64,000 nt of DNA from Janthinobacterium sp. GW456P (GTDB taxonomy: Bacteria; Pseudomonadota; Gammaproteobacteria; Burkholderiales; Burkholderiaceae_D): NCBI RefSeq assembly GCF_002127655.1, contig NZ_NEHB01000009.1:1-64000 (forward strand), written 5' to 3'. Under the pieces are notes generated by a model. That model worked only from the letters and a program-made list of their open reading frames with translations, ran no database searches and was not told the origin of the DNA. The translations under genes and the position numbers were made by a program. Position 1 is the stretch's first letter; each line of letters starts with the position of its first letter. This document shows positions 22,405 to 57,041 of this stretch, piece by piece.

Positions 22405-22520
22405 TGCTGTCTGGTCAGTCCCTGCGGGATTGGAAGCTATTTCATTGGGGGTAGCTTCCCCCGTCGGGTCTGACCCCAGTTTTACGGCATTTGCATTGAG
22501 GAAGATTTGCGACGATTTGC

Positions 22521-22640
22521 GACGTCTAACAAAACCGTAGCGAGCGGCAGTGATTTGTGGCAGAGAAGCGCAACCGTACTCTAGTACGGTGAGCATCGCA
22601 GGCCGCAAAGCGCGACGCGCAGTAGGTTTTGTTAGACGTC
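22521..22640. repeat. Structured intergenic repeat, copy 1 (120 bp)
   Basis: The 324-bp gap after clpB holds this element. Its ends form a perfect 16-bp inverted repeat, GACGTCTAACAAAACC and its complement. The interior has conserved blocks (GTAGCGAGCGG, GAGAAGCGCAAC, GTGAGCATCGCAGGCCG, GACGCGCAGTAGG) and a central hairpin CCGTAC...GTACGG. A second copy lies at 28399-28516 with compensatory changes in the stems. A small GGGGG...CCCCC hairpin and the motif GGGTCTGACCCC precede it at about 22449-22477. Confidence 0.8.
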
Positions 22641-22648
22641 CTCAGGCA

Positions 22649-22684
22649 GGGCGGTATCAGGCTAGACCTGATGCCGCCCTTCTT
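22649..22684 (+). terminator. Rho-independent terminator-like hairpin before the PotF-like gene
   Basis: A 13-bp stem, GGGCGGTATCAGG and CCTGATGCCGCCC around a CTAGA loop, is followed by TTCTT. It probably ends transcripts from clpB; it lies about 45 bp before the next start codon. Confidence 0.65.
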
Positions 22685-22728
22685 GCTATCATCGTCACTA
22701 TTTTCTGATGACTTCTGGAGGCAGCACG

Positions 22729-23844
22729 ATGGCAAACACATGGCAAGCAGGACGGCGCATTGGACTGGGACTGACCTTGGCGGCGGCCGTACTGGCCCTG
22801 CCTGTCCAGGCCCAGGAAGAGAAGGTGCTGAACATCTACAACTGGTCGGACTATATCGGCGACGACACGATCAAGAATTTTGAGAAGGAAACGGGCATCA
22901 AGGTACGCTACGATGTTTTCGATAATAACGAAATCCTCAATGCGAAACTGGTGGCGGGCAAGTCCGGCTATGACATCGTCGTGCCGACGGCCCAATGGGC
23001 GCGCCTGCAGATCGATGCGGGCCTGCTGCGCAAGCTCGACAAGAGCAAGCTGACGAACCTGGGCAACCTCGATCCGAACCTGCAGGCGAAGCTGTCGAAG
23101 ATCGACCCGAACAACGATTACCTGGTCGACTGGCTGTGGGGCTACACGACGGTGGGCATCAACGTCAACAAGGTCAAGGCCGCGCTGGGCGGCATGCCCA
23201 TGCCCGACAACGCCTGGGATTTGATCTTCGACCCGAAATACGCGGCCAAGCTGAAATCGTGCGGCGTGTCCTTCCTCGACTCGCCGTCGGAAGTGCTGCC
23301 GGCCGCCCTGCAATACCTGGGCAAGCCCGCCTATTCGAAAACCGCCGGCGACTACCAGGAAGCGGGCAAGGTGCTGCAGGCGATCCGTCCCTACGTAACC
23401 CTGTTCAGTTCGTCAGGCTATATCAATGACATGGCCAACGGCTCCGTCTGCGTCGCGCTGGGCTGGTCGGGCGACATCAACATCGCGCGCCAGCGCGCCA
23501 TCGACGCGAAGAATGGCAATGTGATCCAGGTGCTGGTACCGAAGACGGCCGCCCTGATGTTCGACACCATGGCCATTCCCGCCGACGCGCCGCATCCGAA
23601 CAATGCGCACCTGTTCATCAACTACATCTTGCGCCCGCAAGTGCATGCCAGCCTGAGCAACAAGGTGTTCTACGCGAATCCGAATCCGGCCAGCATCAAA
23701 TATGTGCGCAAGGACATCGGCGAGAACAAGGCCATCTTCCTGCCGGACGCCGACAAGCAGCGCATGGCCGCGCCGGAAGCGACCACGGCCGATATCCGTC
23801 GCTTGATGACGCGCATCTATACGAAGTTCAAGACGGGAGTGTAA
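22729..23844 (+). CDS. Periplasmic polyamine-binding protein, PotF type
   Basis: 371-residue solute-binding protein of the spermidine/putrescine family. A signal peptide ends near VQAQEEK (about residue 30). The mature start KVLNIYNWSDYIGDDTIKNFEKETG is the PotD/PotF hallmark, and the aspartate and tryptophan residues used for amine binding are present (GYDIVVPTAQW, LWGYTTVGIN, GWSGDINIA). The start has a TGGAGG ribosome-binding site. No permease or ATPase gene of a polyamine ABC transporter is next to it, so it is an orphan here. Putrescine is the likeliest ligand, by family. Confidence 0.9.
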   Translation: MANTWQAGRRIGLGLTLAAAVLALPVQAQEEKVLNIYNWSDYIGDDTIKNFEKETGIKVRYDVFDNNEILNAKLVAGKSGYDIVVPTAQWARLQIDAGLLRKLDKSKLTNLGNLDPNLQAKLSKIDPNNDYLVDWLWGYTTVGINVNKVKAALGGMPMPDNAWDLIFDPKYAAKLKSCGVSFLDSPSEVLPAALQYLGKPAYSKTAGDYQEAGKVLQAIRPYVTLFSSSGYINDMANGSVCVALGWSGDINIARQRAIDAKNGNVIQVLVPKTAALMFDTMAIPADAPHPNNAHLFINYILRPQVHASLSNKVFYANPNPASIKYVRKDIGENKAIFLPDADKQRMAAPEATTADIRRLMTRIYTKFKTGV

Positions 23845-23941
23845 TACGGGAGTGTAAGACGGAAGCGTAAAAACAAGGATGGCGCGAGGGACGGGCCTGG
23901 TTGGCCGTCGCTGGCGCCATGCGATAGTGCCGAGGTGAACG

Positions 23942-24070
23942 CTACTCGTGATAGCGGTCCATCAGCTTATGGTGGCTGCCGCGCATTTCTTCGACCAGTT
24001 CAAAGGCGACAAAGCCGATGATGGCGGCGAAGATGGCGATGAAGAGAAAAACGAGGAAGGTGATTAACAT
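23942..24070 (-). CDS. Small membrane protein (42 residues)
   Basis: A short gene encoding one hydrophobic helix (residues 2-22, starting MLITFLVFLFIAIFAAI) and a charged tail (ELVEEMRGSHHKLMDRYHE). It could sit in the inner membrane with a cytoplasmic C-terminus. No family is recognised. Its strand is opposite to the PotF-like gene; a GC-rich hairpin at about 23880-23922 lies between them. Codon use matches neighbouring genes. It is a prediction from composition and reading frame only. Confidence 0.5.
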   Translation of the reverse strand: MLITFLVFLFIAIFAAIIGFVAFELVEEMRGSHHKLMDRYHE

Positions 24071-24242
24071 GGTCTTTCAGCCGCCGTTGGACGGCCGTCC
24101 GCTGGGTTGCTCAATGTGCCGGAGCAGCGCGCCAGCACGTAGTTGATGCAATTAAACTCTAGCAGATCGGCAGCGCTTTACAAGGCTGCTGAGTTGTGAA
24201 CTCCGCCAGTATTTGTCCCAGCGCATTTTTTGCGCATTTTCC

Positions 24243-24358
24243 TTATTTCACCGCCAGGTCATGCGCCATCACGGCTTTCAAATAGACACTGACGGGGTCG
24301 CCTGGCTCGCGCTGCGGGAACCTGGCCATGCTGCGCTGGCCCTGCGCATTTCCTTGTT
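24243..24358 (-). pseudogene. Duplicated 3' tail of sixA
   Basis: This 116-bp segment is a tandem copy of the last 116 bp of sixA (24359-24474), including its own TAA. Most positions match; the main differences are a short indel-like cluster near GCGGGAACC and scattered transitions. The period is not a multiple of three, so the copy is out of frame with the intact gene and cannot extend it. It is a remnant of a tandem duplication. Confidence 0.8.
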
Positions 24359-24817
24359 TTATTTCACCACCAGGTCGTGCGCCATCACGGCTTTCAAATA
24401 GACGCTGACGGGGTCGCCTGGCTCGCGCTGCGAGAACCACCACGCGCTGGCCTTGCGCATTTCCCATTCCTGCTCTTCGCCCGTCAGCAGCAGGGCGGCC
24501 GCCTGGCCCAGAGTGGGCTGGTGGCCGACGATGAGCACGGTTTCCTTGCCGCCGGGCCAGTTGGCCGCCTTCAGGATGTCTTCCGCTTCGGCGCCGGGCG
24601 CCAGTTCCGGCATCAGCTTGAACTTGCGCCCCAGCGCCTCCGCCGTTTGCAGGGTGCGCAGGGCGGGGCTGACGAGGATGCGGCAATTTTCCGGTAGTTG
24701 CGAGGCCAGCCATTCCCCCATGCGGCGCGCCTGTTTCTGGCCTTTGACGGTCAGGGCGCGTTCGAGGTCGGGGAGGCCCGGCTCGGCTTCTGCGTGTCGC
24801 CACAAGATGAGATCCAT
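24359..24817 (-). CDS. sixA: Phosphohistidine phosphatase SixA
   Basis: Small histidine phosphatase of 152 residues. SixA dephosphorylates phosphohistidine proteins, in E. coli chiefly the nitrogen PTS protein NPr. The start MDLILWRHAEAEPG has the catalytic RH pair (H8). Other motifs are SPALRTLQTAE (about 50-60) and VGHQPTLGQAA, with the second active-site histidine. It follows ppk1 with a 25-bp gap and should be on the same phosphate-controlled transcript. Its 3' end is duplicated immediately downstream. Confidence 0.93.
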   Translation of the reverse strand: MDLILWRHAEAEPGLPDLERALTVKGQKQARRMGEWLASQLPENCRILVSPALRTLQTAEALGRKFKLMPELAPGAEAEDILKAANWPGGKETVLIVGHQPTLGQAAALLLTGEEQEWEMRKASAWWFSQREPGDPVSVYLKAVMAHDLVVK

Positions 24818-24842
24818 GCTGTACTCCTGTGTGTAGAGTTGC

Positions 24843-26936
24843 CTATTCGCCGACCTCCGCGCCCGGCGTGCCCAGTGTGTGCATCAGGTATTGCTGGGCG
24901 CTGAACGGCATCTGCTTGCCGCGCGGCTTGCGGCGCGCATAATGGCCCGTCGGCTCCAGCTCCCATGCATTGGTATTATCCTTCAAATATGGGTTCAAGC
25001 CCTCGGCGATCACGCGCCGTTTCAGCGCCCGGTCCAGCACGGGGAAGGCCACTTCCACCCTGCGGAACAGATTACGGCTCATCCAGTCGGCGCTGGCCAG
25101 GTAGACATCGTGCGCCAGGTCGTTGCGGAAGTAGTAAATGCGGCTGTGTTCGAGGAAACGGCCGATCACCGAGCGCACCTTGATGTTTTCCGACAAGCCC
25201 GGCACGCCCGGCTTCAGGGTGCAGGCGCCGCGCACGATCAAGTCGATCTTCACGCCATCGGTCGAGGCCGCATACAGGGCGCGGATCACGGATTCATCGA
25301 CGAGCGCGTTGACTTTCACGATGATGCGCCCGCGCCGGCCTGAACGGGCGATCTTCGCCTCGTTGCGGATGGCCTTGATGATTTCGCTTTGCAGGCCGAA
25401 CGGCGCCAGCCACAAATGGTTCAGGTTGTGCGGCTTGGTCAGGCTGGTCAGGTGGATGAACACCTCATTGACTTCCACGGCCAGGTCCTGGTTCGCCGTC
25501 AGCAAACCGAAGTCTGTATACAGCTTGGTGGTCGTCGGGTGGTAGTTGCCGGTGCCCAAGTGGGCGTAGAAGCGCAGCGCGCCTTCTTCGCGGCGGATGA
25601 CGAGCGCCACCTTGGCATGGGTTTTCAGACCCACGACGCCGTACACGACTTGCGCGCCCGCCTGTTCCAGCTTGTCGGCCCAGTTGATATTGGCTTCTTC
25701 GTCGAAACGCGCCATCAATTCCACGATGACGGTCACTTCCTTGCCCATCTTCGCCGCCGTGATCAGCGACTCCATCAAATCCGAGTTCATGCCCGTGCGG
25801 TAGATCGTCTGCTTGATGGCGACGACGGACGGGTCGTAGGCGGCGCTGCGGATGAAGTCGATCACCGTCTGGAACGATTGATACGGGTGGTGCAGCAGGA
25901 TGTCGTGCTTGGTCAGCGCGGCAAAGATGTCGTTGCCGATGGCCTTGTGCGCGAGGCCCGGGAAGAACGGCGGGAAGCGCAGCTCCGGCTGCTTGACGTG
26001 GTCGATCATTTCCGACAGGCGCACCAGGTTCACGGGGCCGTTGACGCGGTAGAGGCGGCTTTGATCGAGGTTGAACTGGTCGAGCAGGAATTGCGACAAT
26101 TCTGGCGGGCAATTGCGCGCCACTTCCAGGCGCACCGAGGTGCCGAACTGGCGCCCCACGAGTTCGCCTTTCAGGGCCTGGCGCAAATTCTTGACTTCGT
26201 CCTCGTCGACCCACAGGTCGCTGTCGCGCGTGACGCGGAACTGCGAATAGGCAATGACTTCGCGCCCGGCGAACAAATCCGAGATATGCGCATGGATGAC
26301 GGAAGATAACAGGCAGAAGGACACGCCATCGCCGGAAATGTCGTCCGGCAGCTTGATGACGCGCGGCAAGACGCGGGGCGCCTTGACGATGGCGATCGCC
26401 GTGCCGCGCCCGAACGCATCCTTGCCGCTCAGCGAAACGATGAAATTGAGACTTTTATTGACGACCTGCGGGAACGGGTGGGCCGGGTCCAGGCCGATAG
26501 GCGTCAGCAGCGGGCGCACTTCGCGGTCGAAATACTGCTTGACCCAGGCGCGCTGCGCATCGTTGCGGTCGTTGTCGCGCAGCAGGTGCACGCCCGCTTC
26601 GCGCAGGGCCGGCAAGACTTCGCTATTTAATATGTCGTACTGGCGTTCCACCAGCGCATGGCATTCCTTGCCGATGCGCTCCAGGTTGGCCGCCAAGGCA
26701 GGGTGGCCGGCCAGCGAACCGCCGATGCTGCCGGCCGCCAGCAGGCTGGCCACGCGCACCTCGAAGAACTCATCCATGTTGCTGCTGACGATGCACAGGT
26801 AGCGCAGGCGCTCGAGTAGCGGAATGTTCGGGTCCTCCGCCTGGGCCATCACGCGCCGGTTGAAAGTCAGTTGCGACAGTTCGCGGTCAAGCAGGATGCC
26901 CGATTTGGTCACTTCCGTGTGCAGTTCAGGTTTCAT
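24843..26936 (-). CDS. ppk1: Polyphosphate kinase 1
   Basis: Makes polyphosphate from ATP reversibly through an autophosphorylated histidine. The 697 residues match Ppk1. The N domain begins LLDRELSQLTFNRRVM. SSNMDEFFEVRV and the head domain follow. Two phospholipase-D-like catalytic domains come next, with the active-site histidine in KTHAKVALVIRR and the nearby AHLGTGNYHPTTTKLYTDFG. It is transcribed leftward from a region rich in Pho-box half-sites shared with pstS, which fits induction under phosphate limitation. sixA follows on the same strand. Confidence 0.97.
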   Translation of the reverse strand: MKPELHTEVTKSGILLDRELSQLTFNRRVMAQAEDPNIPLLERLRYLCIVSSNMDEFFEVRVASLLAAGSIGGSLAGHPALAANLERIGKECHALVERQYDILNSEVLPALREAGVHLLRDNDRNDAQRAWVKQYFDREVRPLLTPIGLDPAHPFPQVVNKSLNFIVSLSGKDAFGRGTAIAIVKAPRVLPRVIKLPDDISGDGVSFCLLSSVIHAHISDLFAGREVIAYSQFRVTRDSDLWVDEDEVKNLRQALKGELVGRQFGTSVRLEVARNCPPELSQFLLDQFNLDQSRLYRVNGPVNLVRLSEMIDHVKQPELRFPPFFPGLAHKAIGNDIFAALTKHDILLHHPYQSFQTVIDFIRSAAYDPSVVAIKQTIYRTGMNSDLMESLITAAKMGKEVTVIVELMARFDEEANINWADKLEQAGAQVVYGVVGLKTHAKVALVIRREEGALRFYAHLGTGNYHPTTTKLYTDFGLLTANQDLAVEVNEVFIHLTSLTKPHNLNHLWLAPFGLQSEIIKAIRNEAKIARSGRRGRIIVKVNALVDESVIRALYAASTDGVKIDLIVRGACTLKPGVPGLSENIKVRSVIGRFLEHSRIYYFRNDLAHDVYLASADWMSRNLFRRVEVAFPVLDRALKRRVIAEGLNPYLKDNTNAWELEPTGHYARRKPRGKQMPFSAQQYLMHTLGTPGAEVGE

Positions 26937-27002
26937 ATTCTTTTGTCTTTGCAGATAGTTAATTCTAGCCGTATTTCATCATGTATGACGCGTTGTGAGT
27001 GT

Positions 27003-27031
27003 AATCATGAAATATGACGTAAGCGTGACAT
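27003..27031 (-). promoter_or_regulatory. Pho-box-like repeats facing ppk1
   Basis: Read on the minus strand, three half-sites, ATGTCAC, ACGTCAT and CATGATT, occur with an 11-bp period, as in Pho boxes (CTGTCAT repeats). A good -10, TAGAAT, lies at 26962-26967, but 35 bp away, farther than usual. Another weak pair, GCGTCAT and GATGAAA at 26974-26991, sits closer to it. PhoB control of ppk1 is likely; the exact site is uncertain. Confidence 0.55.
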
Positions 27032-27123
27032 AAGCTGTCATAAAGCGTCGCCCGTCCTGTCATTTTTCTCGCCAAAAAGAGCAATTCCCGGGGCGTAGCC
27101 AATTATTTCAGGATTTTTTACCC

Positions 27124-27157
27124 ATGTCATAAAGCTGTCATATTCGCTTGCTAGACT
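27124..27157 (+). promoter_or_regulatory. Pho box and -10 of the pst operon
   Basis: ATGTCAT at 27124-27130 and CTGTCAT at 27135-27141 form an almost perfect Pho box with the 11-bp period. The -10 TAGACT (27152-27157) starts ten bases after it, the classical PhoB-dependent arrangement. Additional CTGTCAT half-sites lie upstream at about 27034 and 27056. Confidence 0.85.
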
Positions 27158-27207
27158 GCGCAGCATTCAACCGGGACTTTGAGCCCTAACAACCCTGAGG
27201 ACTTGAT

Positions 27208-28257
27208 ATGCAAATGAAGCAAATGTTCAAATTTATCGTCGTGGGTGCTTCGGCAGCGATGGCATTTTCTTCCGCTTCCGTCATGGCGGCAGATATGACA
27301 GGTGCTGGTGCAACCTTCCCGTACCCGATCTACGCCAAATGGGCCGAGACGTACAAAGCCAACACGGGCAACGGCCTGAACTACCAGTCCGTCGGTTCCG
27401 GCGCTGGCATCAAGCAAATCAAGGCCAAGACTGTTGAATTCGGCGCCTCCGACATGCCTTTGAAGGCGGAAGAGCTGGAAGAAGCGGGCCTGATGCAGTT
27501 CCCGGCCATCATGGGCGGCGTGGTCACCATCGTCAACCTCGACGGCGTGACCCCAGGCCAGCTGAAAATGACGGGCAAGGTCGTTGCCGACATCTACCTG
27601 GGCAAGATCACCAAGTGGAGCGCGCCTGAGATCGCCGCACTGAACAGCGGCGTCAAGCTGCCGGACACGGAAATCACCGTGGTGCACCGTGCCGACGGTT
27701 CGGGCACTTCGTTCCTGTTCACCGACTTCCTGTCGAAAACCAACCCGGAATTCAAATCGAAGATCGGCGCTGGCTCGGCTGTGAAATGGGCTGTCGGCGT
27801 GGGCGGCAAGGGTAACGAAGGCGTGGCAGCCAACGTGCAGCGCATCAAGGGTTCGATCGGCTACGTCGAGTGGGCTTACGCCAAGAAAAACAAAATGTCG
27901 CACACCCAGCTGCAAAACAAGGACGGCAACTTCCTGCAGCCTGACGACGAAAACTTCAAGGCAGCCGCCGCTTCGGCACCCTGGACGCAAACCCCAGGCT
28001 TCGGCGTGGTACTGACCGACCAGGCTGGCAAGAACAGCTGGCCGATCACGGGCGTGTCGTTCATCCTGATGCACAAAGTCCAGGCTGACGCAGCCAAGGC
28101 AAAAGAAGTCCTGAAATTCTTCGACTGGGCCTACAAGAACGGCGGCCCTGCTGCCGTCGAACTGGACTACGTGCCAATGCCGGCATCGGTCGTGAAACTG
28201 GTGCAGGAATCGTGGAAAGCCAACCTGAAAGACGCATCGGGCAAAGCCATCTATTAA
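27208..28257 (+). CDS. pstS: Phosphate-binding protein PstS
   Basis: Periplasmic phosphate-binding subunit of the PstSCAB transporter, 349 residues. A signal peptide ends at SVMAADM (about 28). The mature start GAGATFPYPIYAKWAETY is the PstS signature. Phosphate-contacting motifs follow: GSGAGIKQIKA, EFGASDMPL and RADGSGTSFLFTDFL. GAGGA-type sequence precedes the ATG. It is the first gene of the operon, directly behind the Pho box. A short GC hairpin (28293-28314) and a structured repeat separate it from pstC. Confidence 0.97.
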   Translation: MQMKQMFKFIVVGASAAMAFSSASVMAADMTGAGATFPYPIYAKWAETYKANTGNGLNYQSVGSGAGIKQIKAKTVEFGASDMPLKAEELEEAGLMQFPAIMGGVVTIVNLDGVTPGQLKMTGKVVADIYLGKITKWSAPEIAALNSGVKLPDTEITVVHRADGSGTSFLFTDFLSKTNPEFKSKIGAGSAVKWAVGVGGKGNEGVAANVQRIKGSIGYVEWAYAKKNKMSHTQLQNKDGNFLQPDDENFKAAAASAPWTQTPGFGVVLTDQAGKNSWPITGVSFILMHKVQADAAKAKEVLKFFDWAYKNGGPAAVELDYVPMPASVVKLVQESWKANLKDASGKAIY

Positions 28258-28398
28258 TTTGATAGCTTGACCATGTAAATACCCATCCTTGTCCCCGCCA
28301 GCAGCACGGCGGGGCAGGGAGTTAGCCAGGACCGCCCGCAAGCCCTTGCAGACGCTCCTGGCTAAAAAATGAAAGTAAGTAAAAGAATAAAAGCAACG

Positions 28399-28516
28399 AC
28401 GCCTGACAAAACCGTAGCGAGCGGAAGGGAGTTGCGGTCGAGAAGCGCAACTGTACGAAGGTACAGTGAGCATCGCAGGCCGTAAATCCCGACGCGCAGT
28501 AGGTTTTGACAGGCGT
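28399..28516. repeat. Structured intergenic repeat, copy 2 (118 bp)
   Basis: Fills the 303-bp pstS-pstC gap. It shares the arms (ACGCCTGACAAAACC and an almost perfect complement) and interior blocks with the copy at 22521-22640. The central hairpin here is CTGTAC...GTACAG, where copy 1 has CCGTAC...GTACGG, so base pairs change together. Inside the operon, the element could stop or protect part of the transcript and so favour pstS over pstC (inference). Confidence 0.8.
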
Positions 28517-28560
28517 ATTAAAACAGCACGACCGGCAGTACCACCCACATCTGGCACAAT

Positions 28561-52718: not shown

Positions 52719-52803
52719 TGGTGCCCACGAAGGGACTCGAACCCCTACACCCGAAGGCACATGGACCTGAACCATGCGCGTCTACCAATTCCGCCACGTG
52801 GGC
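52719..52803 (-). tRNA. tRNA-Leu(CAG), copy A
   Basis: 85-nt long-variable-arm tRNA with encoded CCA. The acceptor stem is GCCCACG/CGTGGGC. The anticodon loop TTCAGGT carries CAG, reading CUG codons. The T-arm is GGGGTTCGAGTCCC. The variable arm is GTGCCTTCGGGTG-like. It is identical to copies B and C over the mature region by eye. Confidence 0.96.
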
Positions 52804-52805
52804 AC

Positions 52806-52882
52806 TGGAAGGGACTCGAACCCCTACACCCGAAGGCACATGGACCTGAACCATGCGCGTCTACCAATTCCGCCACGTGGGC
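52806..52882 (-). pseudogene. Truncated tRNA-Leu(CAG)
   Basis: Copy of the adjacent tRNA from its 5' end to the T-arm, but it lacks the 3' acceptor strand CGTGGGC and discriminator. The T-arm is followed directly by CA and the 5' end of copy A. An acceptor stem cannot form, so it should be inactive. It arose by unequal recombination within the tRNA repeat. Confidence 0.85.
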
Positions 52883-53069
52883 ATGATGCTGCTTTTGCTG
52901 CTTTCTTGCTGTCTGCTGCGTGTTCTGCAGCGACGGACAAAATAATAAGGGTTGGCGGCGATTCGGTCAATGAACATTTTGCTCTTTTCTTCAAGAAACC
53001 CCCTTTTCCGCTGAAAAAAGCCTTTCTCCTATGAGAAATGGCTGAAAACTGCCTGTTTTTTCAGCGTAT

Positions 53070-54134
53070 TCAGCGTCGTTGCTGCAGTGCCAGCAGCATC
53101 AGTGCCAGACATAGCAGCGGGACGGTGCCCGGCGCCGGGATGGCGTTCGGGGCGATATCCCAGCCGATGGCATCGAGGGCGATCAAGTCGTTCCAGCGCA
53201 GGCGCAGCAATTCGCCGTATGCCACCGTCGGGTCCATGATGCCCAAATGCAAATTGTCGCGCCAGTGGCTGGCCTGGTCGCCATCGCCGTGATAGCTGCC
53301 GTTGGCAAACAGGGGCCCGCGCGTGGCACCGCGGTCGAGCGAGAAATACTTGTCGCGGTTGTCGGCCGTCCAGTCGATCACGCCGGCCGCGGCGCTTTCT
53401 GCCGAGTAGCGGAACAGGTCCAGTCCCGAGACGTAGGTAAATTCCGTGTCGTCATAGGGGCCGCCCAGCGGCGGCGAGTTGTAGTCGAGGATGTCGACGC
53501 CGCTGAGAAAGCCCAGTGCGTGGCCGATTTCATGCATGGCCACGCCGATGAAGTCGATGCTGCGGGCCTCGATGCCATTGCCGGGATCGAAATCGAAGTT
53601 GAAATCGCTGTTGAACTGGATAAAGCCATCGCAATTGCCGATGCAGCCGTCCAGCGATTGCGGCGGCGGTGCCAGGCCGACGGCCTTGGCTTCGGCATTG
53701 CTCAGGGATAAATACTGATTGTTGGCGTCGCCATTATTGTCGAGATAGGGCAGGGCGCTGCCGGGTCCGTTGGGATTGTTGGCCGTGCGGTTGATCAGCA
53801 TGCCGAAGCTGTCTCCCGTTGGCAGGTAGGCCAGCGCCCGCTGGTCGACGGTGGATGTGGCGTCGGCGGCCAGGGTGCCGCGAAAGTCGCTGTAGCGGTA
53901 AAACGCTTCCGACGAGCCCGTTTGCCCCAGGATGTTGCCGCCCAGCGAATTGAAGCCCACCGTCAGCTCGATGGTGACATTGTCTTTCAGGACGCGCGAC
54001 CAGCGCGTGGCGGCCGCCTGGAATCCCTGCTGCGCCTGCGGCGAAGTGCCGGGTACGTATTGCAGATTGAACAGGGGCGAGGCGATGGTGCTGGCGGGCA
54101 AGATCAGGGCAAGGACGGCGACGAGGCTTTTCAT
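53070..54134 (-). CDS. Secreted metalloprotease with PEP-CTERM-like anchor
   Basis: 354-residue exported protein. A signal peptide ends near STIAS (about 19). Zinc motif HEIGHALGFLSG is at 201-212, a metzincin-like HExxHxxGxxSG. The C-terminus has IPAPGTVPLLCLALMLLAL plus QQRR, which is a PEP-CTERM sorting signal (variant motif, hydrophobic helix, arginine tail) for exosortase processing. It resembles the NF038122 group of PEP-CTERM proteases. Neither exosortase nor EPS genes are in the window. Start 54134 is used (signal peptide MKSLVAVLALIL); a longer in-frame start at 54173 is less likely. Confidence 0.86.
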   Translation of the reverse strand: MKSLVAVLALILPASTIASPLFNLQYVPGTSPQAQQGFQAAATRWSRVLKDNVTIELTVGFNSLGGNILGQTGSSEAFYRYSDFRGTLAADATSTVDQRALAYLPTGDSFGMLINRTANNPNGPGSALPYLDNNGDANNQYLSLSNAEAKAVGLAPPPQSLDGCIGNCDGFIQFNSDFNFDFDPGNGIEARSIDFIGVAMHEIGHALGFLSGVDILDYNSPPLGGPYDDTEFTYVSGLDLFRYSAESAAAGVIDWTADNRDKYFSLDRGATRGPLFANGSYHGDGDQASHWRDNLHLGIMDPTVAYGELLRLRWNDLIALDAIGWDIAPNAIPAPGTVPLLCLALMLLALQQRR

Positions 54135-54271
54135 GACGGCGCTCCGGGAATGGCGATGCCATCCTGCAGGCAAGAAGCGTGCTCGGTTTTAAAATCAGGC
54201 ACTTATATACCTGCAGGCAGAGGACTGTCAGAAATGCCGACAGTCCGGGCCGCACCATCCTTGCCCGGTGC

Positions 54272-56506
54272 TTAATCGGGCAGGGCGATGATTTGCGTGC
54301 CGATCTGCAATTGACGTCCGCTGGGCGCGGAGAGTACTGCCGTGGCGACGGCCTTGCAGCCAATATCGAGCACGACCAGGAATTCCGCCGTCAGCGCAGG
54401 CGAAGACTTGATAAAGGCCGCATGCTGCTGCATTTCCAGCGGCGGATTGGGAGCGCTGAAGCTGGTCAATTGCTCTTCATCGGCGCGCAGGGATTGCAGG
54501 CACAGCGTGGCCGTGCCGTTCTCGATGCTGGCGCGGCCATTCGGGTACAGGTGGAGCGCGTTAATGGCATGCATGTTCCACTCGAAGCTGCGCGCAGTTG
54601 CCGAGCTTAGCTGGTCGCGGACCACCACCACGTCGTGCCGGCGTGAGTACCATACCTGGCGTTTGGCCCTGCTCAAGTCGTTGCTATAGGCGGCGCCGGC
54701 ATCGCCCTCCACGAAGTCCAGGTCCGGAGTGTGCGTGAAAGCCGTGATTTTGCCGTTCTTGTAGCGCATATCGTAGTGGCCCTCGATGAATTGGCCTTTG
54801 CCGCCGTCGAAGGTGATGGCATTGTGCGCGCGCGACTGGCGATACCAGCTCTTCGACAGTGGCGACGCGTAAGAGTCCTGGTAGCCCGCCTCAATCAGCA
54901 ATGGTTTGCCGTCGCTGTTGATGACCAGGCTATTCTGGTCGCCATGGCTGTGGTTGAATGCGCCAAACGGGCTGGACTTGAAGTATACCGAGGTGCGCGC
55001 GGAATCGGCGATATCGCTGTGCATGGCGGCCCAGCCTATGCTGGGGAAGAGCATGGCGTTCGCTGGCGGCTCGGGGTCGACACTGTCAGCTGGCAGCGGA
55101 TAGGATGCCTGCAGCAAGGTGATGGGGTTTTCCTGGGGGCCCGGCTGGCTGCTGTACCAGGCCGCCGCCGGCGTGGCTTGCCGCGCCACGTAAGCCTTGA
55201 GCAGCGCAGGGTCCGGTTTGCTTTCATGGACGTCGCCAAAGACGTGGCGCGGTGCGCCAGGCGGAATGAACTGCATGAAATAATTGGCAAAGCCGCGCGA
55301 CCACGGCTTGTCGAACAGGTTCACGCCCGTCATTTCGGCCAGCGGCTGCCATAGTTGCAACTGGAGGTCGGTGGTGTACTGGCCGTAGGCCGAGCCATTG
55401 GCAAAGCCGCCTTCCGGTCCGCTCCACACATGGGTGATGTGAATGTATGAGCGTACGGCGAAGTCGAACCATGTTTGCGCCTGCGGCGTGGTGTCGAGCA
55501 GCAGGGTCGATGTCACTGCCAGGTAGCCCAGCGCCTCGACGCCATGCGAATCCATGGGCGACTGGTCCAGGCGTCCGCCAGCGACGGCAAGATCGGCGTA
55601 GATGGGCGTCAGGCGTTGCGCGGCGATCGCCAGCCAGTGCGCGCGGCGCGCAGCGTCGAGATCCAGCCACAGGAAGTCGGCGCCCTTGGCCAGCACCAGT
55701 GCGATCATGCGCGCTACCTGGTCCTGCCCCTGGTAGCTGGTGGGGCCGTTCGGGTTCAGGGCGGCAAGCTGGTCGCCGCGCACAATGGCTTCGTCCAGGT
55801 AGCGGCGCTCCTTGGTCAGGCGGAACAGTAGCGCCGCCGCCTCCATCTGTCGGATGACGCCGCCTGCCGCGTTGGCGATGCGTACGTACTGGCCGCTATC
55901 GTTGGGCGTGGTCCATAGACCGTCATGCACGGGAGCGATGGCTGTGGTATTGGTGTTGACCTCGTTGATCAGCCGGTTCAGATAGGGGCGGCGCTTGCTG
56001 TCCATGCCGGCACTCCAGGCGTTCGCCTGGGCAAAGCTGGCCGGCAGTTGGCGCGGGCGAGGGTGGGCCCGTACGGTTGCCGCCAGTTGGTTTGATTCGG
56101 GCACGACAAAGTCGCGTGTGCTGGCATCGATGACGAATGGGCGCCAGGCCGACCAGTCGCGCTGCGTGGACAGCGGGCTGACGCGCCACTGGTAGGTGCC
56201 TATTGGCAGGGTGGCCGACGGCAGCAGGAAGTTGCGGGAAACCGTGTGGCTGGTGGCGACGCCCCCGGCAGGCTGGATTTCGACGATGTACTGTGCGGGA
56301 TAGCTTGCATGCCGCGGCCAAGCAAACGAAGGCGGGTTTTGCACCTGCAGCAGCACTTGTTCCGGCGCCGGCTTGACGATTTCCGGGCTGCTGGAGCGGG
56401 TGGTGACCCAGTCCGCCGCCTGGCTGCCGCAGGCGCCGAAGGCGAGGCAGAGCACAATCAGACGGACGGCGAAGGAAGACTTGTTGTTGAGAGGGGTGTA
56501 CGGCAT
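54272..56506 (-). CDS. Secreted heparinase II/III-family polysaccharide lyase
   Basis: 744-residue exported enzyme. A signal peptide ends at GSQA (about 30). A DUF4962-like alpha/alpha-toroid region spans about 60-430, with SPMDSHGVEALGYLAVTS and GGFANGSAYGQYTTD. A heparinase II/III beta-sandwich region spans about 480-740, with FNHSHGDQNSLVINSDGKPLLIEAGY. The histidines and tyrosines expected for uronic-acid lyases are present. Substrate unknown (glycosaminoglycan-like or alginate-like, or its own exopolysaccharide). It sits upstream of the PEP-CTERM protease on the same strand. Confidence 0.85.
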   Translation of the reverse strand: MPYTPLNNKSSFAVRLIVLCLAFGACGSQAADWVTTRSSSPEIVKPAPEQVLLQVQNPPSFAWPRHASYPAQYIVEIQPAGGVATSHTVSRNFLLPSATLPIGTYQWRVSPLSTQRDWSAWRPFVIDASTRDFVVPESNQLAATVRAHPRPRQLPASFAQANAWSAGMDSKRRPYLNRLINEVNTNTTAIAPVHDGLWTTPNDSGQYVRIANAAGGVIRQMEAAALLFRLTKERRYLDEAIVRGDQLAALNPNGPTSYQGQDQVARMIALVLAKGADFLWLDLDAARRAHWLAIAAQRLTPIYADLAVAGGRLDQSPMDSHGVEALGYLAVTSTLLLDTTPQAQTWFDFAVRSYIHITHVWSGPEGGFANGSAYGQYTTDLQLQLWQPLAEMTGVNLFDKPWSRGFANYFMQFIPPGAPRHVFGDVHESKPDPALLKAYVARQATPAAAWYSSQPGPQENPITLLQASYPLPADSVDPEPPANAMLFPSIGWAAMHSDIADSARTSVYFKSSPFGAFNHSHGDQNSLVINSDGKPLLIEAGYQDSYASPLSKSWYRQSRAHNAITFDGGKGQFIEGHYDMRYKNGKITAFTHTPDLDFVEGDAGAAYSNDLSRAKRQVWYSRRHDVVVVRDQLSSATARSFEWNMHAINALHLYPNGRASIENGTATLCLQSLRADEEQLTSFSAPNPPLEMQQHAAFIKSSPALTAEFLVVLDIGCKAVATAVLSAPSGRQLQIGTQIIALPD

Positions 56507-56626
56507 CGACTATCTCCAGAGTTGCTGTTGCCAGTTGCGCGAGGTGCGGCACGGGGAAGTGATACTGTACTATTAAATTGTCAATTAAGTTCATTTTTAA
56601 TAACTTAATTGTGTTCCTGCCGAAAA

Positions 56627-56666
56627 TGAAAAAAGCCGCAAACTCGTGAAAGTCTGCGGCTTTTTT
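56627..56666. terminator. Terminator, tRNA-Leu unit B
   Basis: Same hairpin as unit A with one mismatch (AGTCTGCGGC for AGTTTGCGGC), flanked by A- and T-runs. Confidence 0.85.
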
Positions 56667-56680
56667 GCGAATTTTGGTAA

Positions 56681-56765
56681 TGGTGCCCACGAAGGGACTC
56701 GAACCCCTACACCCGAAGGCACATGGACCTGAACCATGCGCGTCTACCAATTCCGCCACGTGGGC
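56681..56765 (-). tRNA. tRNA-Leu(CAG), copy B
   Basis: Intact 85-nt tRNA with encoded CCA and anticodon CAG, same mature sequence as copy A. The 5' flank resembles that of the truncated copy (TGATGCTGCTTT and GTGTTCTGCAG on the plus strand). Confidence 0.96.
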
Positions 56766-56905
56766 ACTGATGCTGCTTTGCTGCTTTCTTTGCGTGTTCT
56801 GCAGAGAAGGCAGGATCATAGAGGCTGCCAGCGTGGAGGTCAATGAAAAAATACGGAAAGCGGCAAATAAATGCGGGGCGGCCTCCGGCGGGGGGAGCTG
56901 CAATG

Positions 56906-56943
56906 AAAAAAGCCGCAAACTCGTGAAAGTTTGCGGCTTTTTT
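56906..56943. terminator. Terminator, tRNA-Leu unit C
   Basis: Identical to the unit A hairpin, including flanking bases GCAATG and the spacer to the tRNA. Confidence 0.87.
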
Positions 56944-56956
56944 GCGAATTAGGTAA

Positions 56957-57041
56957 TGGTGCCCACGAAGGGACTCGAACCCCTACACCCGAAGGCACAT
57001 GGACCTGAACCATGCGCGTCTACCAATTCCGCCACGTGGGC
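56957..57041 (-). tRNA. tRNA-Leu(CAG), copy C
   Basis: Intact 85-nt tRNA with encoded CCA and anticodon CAG. It is the most upstream of the minus-strand tRNAs and has the only convincing promoter near it (TATAAT at 57107-57112). Confidence 0.96.

Follow-up and report, generated by a model that had tools for sequence, protein, structure and literature searches.

A dispersed hairpin element of about 120 bp in Janthinobacterium sp. GW456P and its relatives: position behind stop codons and the strand that keeps its fold

Two copies of the element in the clpB-potF and pstS-pstC intervals

The window analysed here is a stretch of 64,000 nucleotides from Janthinobacterium sp. GW456P (NCBI RefSeq assembly GCF_002127655.1, contig NZ_NEHB01000009.1, positions 1 to 64,000 of the forward strand), and it carries two copies of a hairpin element that is dispersed through this genome and found in many related ones. 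Copy 1 lies between the end of clpB (22404) and a potF-like binding-protein open frame that begins at 22708, and copy 2 lies between the end of pstS (28257) and the pstC open frame from 28561 (gene names assigned by eye). An original prediction, made from the sequence alone, had described them as two similar structured repeats; they share 83.3% identity across 120 nt (E 1.2e-31 in a search of the window), and the start of copy 2 is corrected here to 28397. The parts of the two copies are as follows, with the evidence in brackets.

22521..22640, plus strand: copy 1 (BLAST, fold, covariance model match)
22521..22536, plus strand: copy 1, 5' outer arm, partner 22625-22640 (fold, covarying helices 1-2)
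22537..22547, plus strand: copy 1, conserved GTAGCGAGCGG, internal-loop motif (genome pattern search, cross-genus conservation)
22573..22590, plus strand: copy 1, apical hairpin ACCGTAC-TCTA-GTACGGT (fold, covariation)
22616..22625, plus strand: copy 1, conserved CGCGCAGTAG, which reads CTACTGCGCG on the opposite strand (alignment A3)
22625..22640, plus strand: copy 1, 3' outer arm (fold)
22642..22644, minus strand: TGA triplet, 16 nt before CTACTGCGCG, in the usual register (sequence)
28397..28516, plus strand: copy 2 (BLAST, fold, covariance model match)
28397..28413, plus strand: copy 2, 5' outer arm, partner 28502-28516 (fold)
28414..28424, plus strand: copy 2, conserved GTAGCGAGCGG (genome pattern search)
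28450..28467, plus strand: copy 2, apical hairpin ACTGTAC-GAAG-GTACAGT (fold, covariation)
28493..28502, plus strand: copy 2, conserved CGCGCAGTAG (alignment A3)
28502..28516, plus strand: copy 2, 3' outer arm (fold)
28518..28520, minus strand: TAA triplet, 15 nt before CTACTGCGCG, in the usual register (sequence)

A coding frame ending at the minus-strand TGA or TAA triplet was looked for at both copies and none was found. On folding, each copy forms one long interrupted hairpin, which bears out the inverted ends and inner hairpin described before; the change from CCGTAC/GTACGG in copy 1 to CTGTAC/GTACAG in copy 2 is present, and the outer arms do change largely together, with one mismatch in the arms of copy 2. 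The RNA folds of the plus strand reach -61.8 kcal/mol (copy 1, z -7.9) and -62.7 kcal/mol (copy 2, z -8.9), and the DNA folds -36.9 kcal/mol (z -7.2) and -34.4 kcal/mol (z -6.7), respectively; 0 shuffled sequences were as stable in either case. The minus strand of both copies retains good folding (RNA z -6.2 and -5.5).

Copy number, spread and covariation

The source genome comprises 6.27 Mb in 78 contigs. A BLAST search of this genome with copy 1 gave 42 rows, i.e., at least 41 distinct places with the query included (the best 40 of 109 candidates), and a covariance model (R1, built from 32 copies) gave 132 rows at E <= 0.01, many of which are one place on both strands. After the places from the profile search were fetched and deduplicated, 97 distinct copies were counted, so that the two repeats first noticed are both present but belong to a family of 97 copies in the genome instead of making up a two-copy element.

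At least 23 of 24 genus-mates have a match, with 1 to at least 85 matches each (some places counted on both strands), and a further genus-mate (G235) gave 0 matches in the profile search. With E <= 1e-4 as the limit, matches were obtained in at least 170 of 294 genomes and at least 32 of 44 genera of the GTDB family. A cross-genus model (R2) matched at least 29 of 369 genomes of the class and, among the matches listed, 45 of 398 genomes of the phylum, the source genome being included in both counts; the latter figure should be taken as an upper bound on how far the family extends, since several of the 20 distant loci that were read keep the apical part alone. Some matches in other classes consist of the apical part only. 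A pattern scan of named genomes found, among the matches listed, mostly Janthinobacterium and some Massilia, Telluria, Pseudoduganella and Collimonas. Other gammaproteobacterial families have a longer form of approximately 146 nt, in which CTACTGCGC, the apical loop and GCTCGCTACG are retained in most of the loci read. Plasmids and phages searched with copy 1 at E 1e-3 gave no match.

Covariation was assessed in alignments fitted to the model structure (A2-A4); matches above E 1e-15 were excluded from A3 and those above 1e-12 from A4, and an earlier alignment, A1, was made without loci L024 and L030, which have a 13-nt insert. In A3 (56 sequences from several genera), 96.6% of cells pair versus 76.9% after shuffling, both sides change in 30 of 38 pairs, and 394 cells show a double change versus 104 in the shuffled control and at most 88 with slid partners. 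Alignment A4, made up of own-genome copies (96 distinct rows), shows covariation at 31 of its 38 pairs, with 377 such cells versus 83 in the control. Covariation beyond chance, which had been proposed from two copies, therefore holds well above both kinds of control, and the further genome copies that the original prediction had asked for are found as well. The near-invariant parts are internal loops, in which CGTAGCGAGCG lies with CGCGCAGTAG and GAGAAGCGCA with GAGCATCGCAG. The element is a single long hairpin of about 120 bp, in which the internal loops are fixed and the stems covary freely.

Several structural variants were also observed. Locus L007 (G000:C1:187484-187747) has two element copies in direct tandem, with the middle-stem sequence differing in one. 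The 13-nt insert resembles GGGGCGCCGAGCC where it lies near position 71 and the reverse complement of that sequence where it lies near 36, and amounts to a very small nested repeat with two fixed positions in the element; it occurs in 17 of 100 A4 rows (16 of 96 distinct); such rows are at least 132 nt long (e.g., L024, L030, L353 and L354), and both inserts are present in L353 and L354. Three short copies (L356, L357 and L358, in contigs C5, C2 and C17 of G000) have both outer arms and lack a large part of the middle, which points to a deletion inside the hairpin. No half-elements were found, and the three short copies read have both ends.

The stop codon register and the strand that keeps the fold

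For the description of neighbouring genes, the strand opposite to that of the covariance model (model strand) is called the gene strand, and gene ends were set by a codon-usage caller, for which the window was the training set, or by open frames of 80 codons or more. Among the 97 own copies, 47 lie between tandem genes opposite to the model strand, 13 between tandem genes along the model strand, 31 between convergent and 4 between divergent genes, and 2 at contig or locus edges were left unclassified. The distance from the gene stop to the start of the element is -10 to +13 nt in 70 of the 78 copies with a tandem-antisense or convergent setting. Both window copies have the orientation of the minority type (13 of 97).

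With CTACTGCGC as a landmark, the stop of a frame of at least 80 codons falls 13-19 nt upstream in 57 of 92 own copies (control strand, 6 of 90), in 60 of 108 copies from named Janthinobacterium (3 of 107), in 15 of 26 from other Burkholderiaceae (1 of 26) and in 4 of 8 from Massilia and relatives (1 of 8). Widening the range to 2-24 nt raises these counts to 73 of 92 (19 of 90), 90 of 108 (20 of 107), 21 of 26 (4 of 26) and 5 of 8 (3 of 8), respectively. The commonest distance from stop to CTACTGCGC is 16 nt. Frames ending 13-19 nt before the landmark were likewise seen in 8 of 20 loci of the longer form (frames of at least 40 codons, counted on one strand with no control strand) and in 4 of 20 more distant loci (at least 50 codons). 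All three stop codons are used; the stops 2-24 nt before CTACTGCGC in own copies comprise 34 TAA, 21 TAG and 18 TGA. Of 26 pairs compared, 23 have a stop at the matching position in the element-free orthologue (15 of these represent one pstS site, in G007), so the gene end existed without the element.

This register is a point in favour of an alternative in which the hairpin is an element of the 3' untranslated region (3'-UTR) of the mRNA that protects or shapes the 3' end of the transcript or influences the ribosome as it terminates, and uncouples gene levels within operons. Several further observations suit it: the good folding of the minus strand at both window copies, a terminator-like hairpin (by eye) behind the same stop at the element-free sister site L164, and the setting of copies in other genera. 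In the latter, those with scanned neighbours lie inside operon-like gene pairs (Pfam, ten proteins), flanked by an ATP-binding cassette (ABC) ATPase, presumably PstB, and PhoU (L186), citrate synthase and aconitase (L193), thiolase and short-chain dehydrogenase (L184), enoyl-CoA hydratase and thiolase (L198), or two branched-chain amino-acid ABC ATPases (L206). Comparison of open frames showed the same neighbours again in four groups of loci (L187-L189 with L192; L197 with L201; L185 with L190 and L191; L202 with L204 and L205).

The acting strand of a functional hairpin tolerates G-U pairs and does not tolerate A-C pairs, and the strand under constraint can be read from this asymmetry. Across genera the model strand has 181 G-U versus 11 A-C pairs (106 versus 11 when two G-U-majority columns are left out), and in the own copies 318 versus 44 (176 versus 43 without G-U-majority columns; the count covers 100 A4 rows, 4 of which are duplicates from overlapping loci). 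When only changes away from Watson-Crick pairing between orthologous copies were counted, 140 G-U stood against 51 A-C, a ratio of 2.75 (bootstrap 1.98-3.95). The minimum free energy is also lower on the model strand than on the gene strand in 54 of 56 sequences. The fold is therefore maintained in situ, and it is the non-gene strand that maintains it. Selection on an mRNA fold is disfavoured at the usual sites, where the stop-bearing gene lies on one strand and wobble pairs are retained on the other, and both the wobble count and the free energies speak against the 3'-UTR alternative, which we regard as doubtful. Inside operons this constrained strand should rarely give rise to a transcript, so a hairpin of DNA would be the simplest reading. 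At both window copies the fold-constrained strand is the mRNA strand, and an effect on pstS or pstC mRNA may therefore be conceivable there.

A fold constrained on the antisense strand, with its boundary at the gene end, would also be compatible with a device against antisense transcription, in which RNA of the constrained strand forms the hairpin before entering the gene 3' end and is ended or cut. The convergent setting is more frequent for the element (31 of 95 classified copies) than for gaps of at least 120 nt (23 of 129, from 63 loci, element-bearing gaps included), as this explanation would have it. The strand signal is, however, alike in the two settings of the own copies (G-U:A-C 136:21 in tandem-antisense and 100:16 in convergent copies), and a U-run behind the hairpin, as in an intrinsic terminator, was seen by eye in none of the sequences read (no count or terminator scan was made). 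We consider such a stopper of antisense transcripts improbable.

Copies are present or absent at orthologous sites; they come and go. At the pstS-pstC locus, 16 of 18 genus-mates have no copy, and of the 2 that do, G008 has it at the same place as window copy 2 and G007 has it reversed, directly at the pstS stop. A special role in the phosphate operon, as originally proposed, is accordingly unsupported, the more so because the window copies are of the minority orientation and lack the usual gene; the 16 element-free sister genomes also argue against the 3'-UTR alternative. The clpB-potF interval has a copy in 0 of 17 best potF loci (in L253 the upstream neighbour seems different), and three potF loci carry a copy at the opposite flank of potF. 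Between orthologous copies (68 pairs), conservation of the element is 0.932 versus 0.872 and 0.901 for its flanks, the element being better kept in 55 and 45 pairs, respectively; this in-place conservation is another point for a 3'-UTR function. The patchy distribution, together with the lack of a mobiliser in the searches described below, would suit inert remains of an old repeat, i.e., neutral debris resembling a miniature inverted-repeat transposable element (MITE). Compensatory changes, strand-specific retention of wobble pairs (in orthologous copies as well) and the docking register at stops all argue against such debris, and we find it very improbable.

Relation to known elements, and other features of the window

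Repetitive extragenic palindromic (REP) sequences, including the GTAG-tagged palindromes that go with RAYT (REP-associated tyrosine transposase) enzymes, are the kind of known repeat that this element is most like: both are dispersed extragenic palindromes near gene ends, and GTAG or GTCG is found within the conserved motif of the element. A REP that lies near a stop codon can have an effect on translation. The differences are that the element is about 120 bp long versus 20-40 bp for REPs (PMC3733652), that its GTAG lies inside a longer stem, on both sides and in the same direction, and that no RAYT neighbour is present in the loci read. GTAG REPs are reported to supply often the TAG stop of flanking open reading frames in PMC3733652, the main text of which does not mention Janthinobacterium or Burkholderia, whereas the stops at the element are of all three kinds and at positions shared with element-free orthologues.

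We favour, with middling confidence, the reading that the element is a REP-like, non-coding, dispersed DNA element forming a family of its own, which is mostly docked at stops in one orientation and folds on the opposite strand. If so, the active form would be a single-stranded DNA hairpin of the fold-constrained strand, as in REPs or attC sites, and we infer that a protein may read the loop motifs (CGTAGCGAGCG/CGCGCAGTAG and GAGAAGCGCA/GAGCATCGCAG) and copy or move the element. The preference for sites directly behind stops would stem from the insertion step, from selection, or from both. As a by-product, the mRNA of the gene would acquire a strong hairpin after its stop, with a possible effect on its 3' end or stability.

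A number of results weigh against this REP-like reading. On the strand question, pairs taken from the gene strand's own fold reduce the contrast to 139 versus 75 (ratio 1.85, 1.40-2.58), and part of the in-situ signal could also arise from gene conversion among copies. As to the stops, the letters of the triplet differ in 4 of the 23 same-position pairs, and 46 of 205 Janthinobacterium copies, both window copies included, have no recognised gene end; these 46 non-genic copies nevertheless give 30 counts of a stop triplet at 13-17 nt ahead of the landmark, versus about 9 expected from distances of 20-40. The frequent triplets in register and the differing letters mean that the element itself may bring part of the stop. 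The register is also tighter than neutral insertion would give, and the constraint between orthologous copies suggests a local role as well. A target duplication was sought at empty sites and none was clear, the whole 3' regions differing between filled and empty sites. With regard to mobility, no mobiliser was found in searches for RAYT-type and integron integrase genes. PF01797 (RAYT-type) genes are present in all 26 genomes searched (66 matches), and a RAYT as mobiliser was rejected, an element copy being found in 0 of 42 PF01797 loci (41 of the 66 matches, one twice; approximately 1.5-2.5 kb on each side). An autonomous parent was rejected as well: the genome has 77 exact matches to GTMGCGAGCGG, of which 76 are in known copies (the opposite-side motif was not searched genome-wide), and the remaining one, C11:31497, is within chance, the reversed pattern giving 15.

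Integron attC sites resemble the element in conserving structure over sequence, in having a stop codon at the edge and in folding on the opposite strand, and its wobble asymmetry is compatible with recombination of the attC type on the bottom strand. A solitary attC-type recombination site spread by an integron integrase would share this geometry, in which the stop abuts the site, and an over-cutoff integrase was found 6-8 kb from one copy in each of two gamma genomes (G399 and G644, no array in either); tyrosine-recombinase matches below the cutoff lie approximately 3 kb or less from a copy in G430 (C34) and G491 (C198). The element differs from attC in that core boxes are rare and no arrays were seen. 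The attC core boxes RYYYAAC and GTTRRRY occur in 6 and 8 of 100 copies (4.1 and 2.6 in shuffled sequences) and in 1 and 2 of 56 cross-genus sequences (1.8 and 1.1), and an attC assignment was rejected. Element arrays near integron integrases were not found on the stretches read (four genomes; direct repeats for two), and an over-cutoff integrase is present in 3 of 30 genomes and 0 of 25 Janthinobacterium. We would hardly expect the solitary attC site to be the answer. As to a MITE of a DDE transposon, which would have conserved terminal inverted repeats and a target duplication, the outer arms of the element have a consensus in Janthinobacterium, yet they vary with compensation and differ between genera.

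The element had been put forward as a candidate for an undescribed one. Neither window copy has an Rfam match at the gathering score, but the Rfam family RF02228 (sX9, a small RNA (sRNA) of Xanthomonas) corresponds to about half of the related longer form. Its 76 positions cover the apical loop and 3' half of the approximately 146-nt form, including CUGCUCGCUACG, on the gene strand, and the model has neither the 5' half nor the long hairpin. Among the longer-form gamma loci, 5 of 20 reach the gathering score (44 bits) and 2 more lie below it; no gathering-level match was obtained in 14 other-genus loci (best 31.5 bits, L208) or in 20 further loci, 9 own and 11 from relatives (best 24 bits, L198, E 3.8). 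The RF02228 model seems to cover just the 3' half of a longer hairpin, and, if it is half a hairpin, its consensus structure is probably wrong. That sX9, which is filed as an sRNA, lies on the gene strand is a further argument for the 3'-UTR alternative. sX9 is named among the most frequently annotated bacterial sRNAs (PMC9029176) and is reported in Herbaspirillum (PMC6337395). Among the papers listed by literature searches, none describes this repeat by title or abstract.

The REP-like reading can be extended to a class of stop-docking DNA hairpins in several families of Pseudomonadota, with a template-strand fold, an unrecognised hairpin-reading enzyme and insertion tied to the end of translation, where the cover of the RNA ends; sX9 would then be the cut-off half of such a hairpin and not an sRNA family of its own. 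We put this extension forward tentatively and think it unlikely as a whole. If the computed copy numbers hold genus-wide, very many Janthinobacterium genes would have the same hairpin at a fixed step behind the stop. Stop-docked hairpins would tie the spread of palindromes to gene ends and offer tens of natural replicates per genome, and the comparison with sX9 suggests that a public RNA family possibly describes only half of an element.

Other features were observed in the window. A second hairpin lies 3' of pstS at 28287-28319 (CCTTG..CCCCGCC..GGCGGGGCAGGG), and hairpins of this type are found 3' of pstS in many genus-mates, element-free ones included. Palindromes of the GGGTCTGACCCC / GGGTCGGACCC type occur at 22412-22480 and also in the clpB-potF gaps of the genus-mate loci L237, L239 and L242-L246; exact GGGTCTGACCCC has 1 occurrence in the window. 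The four Rfam matches in the window are tRNAs, and they form a small cluster on the minus strand at 52722-57041, made up of three matches of equal score and a weak fourth.

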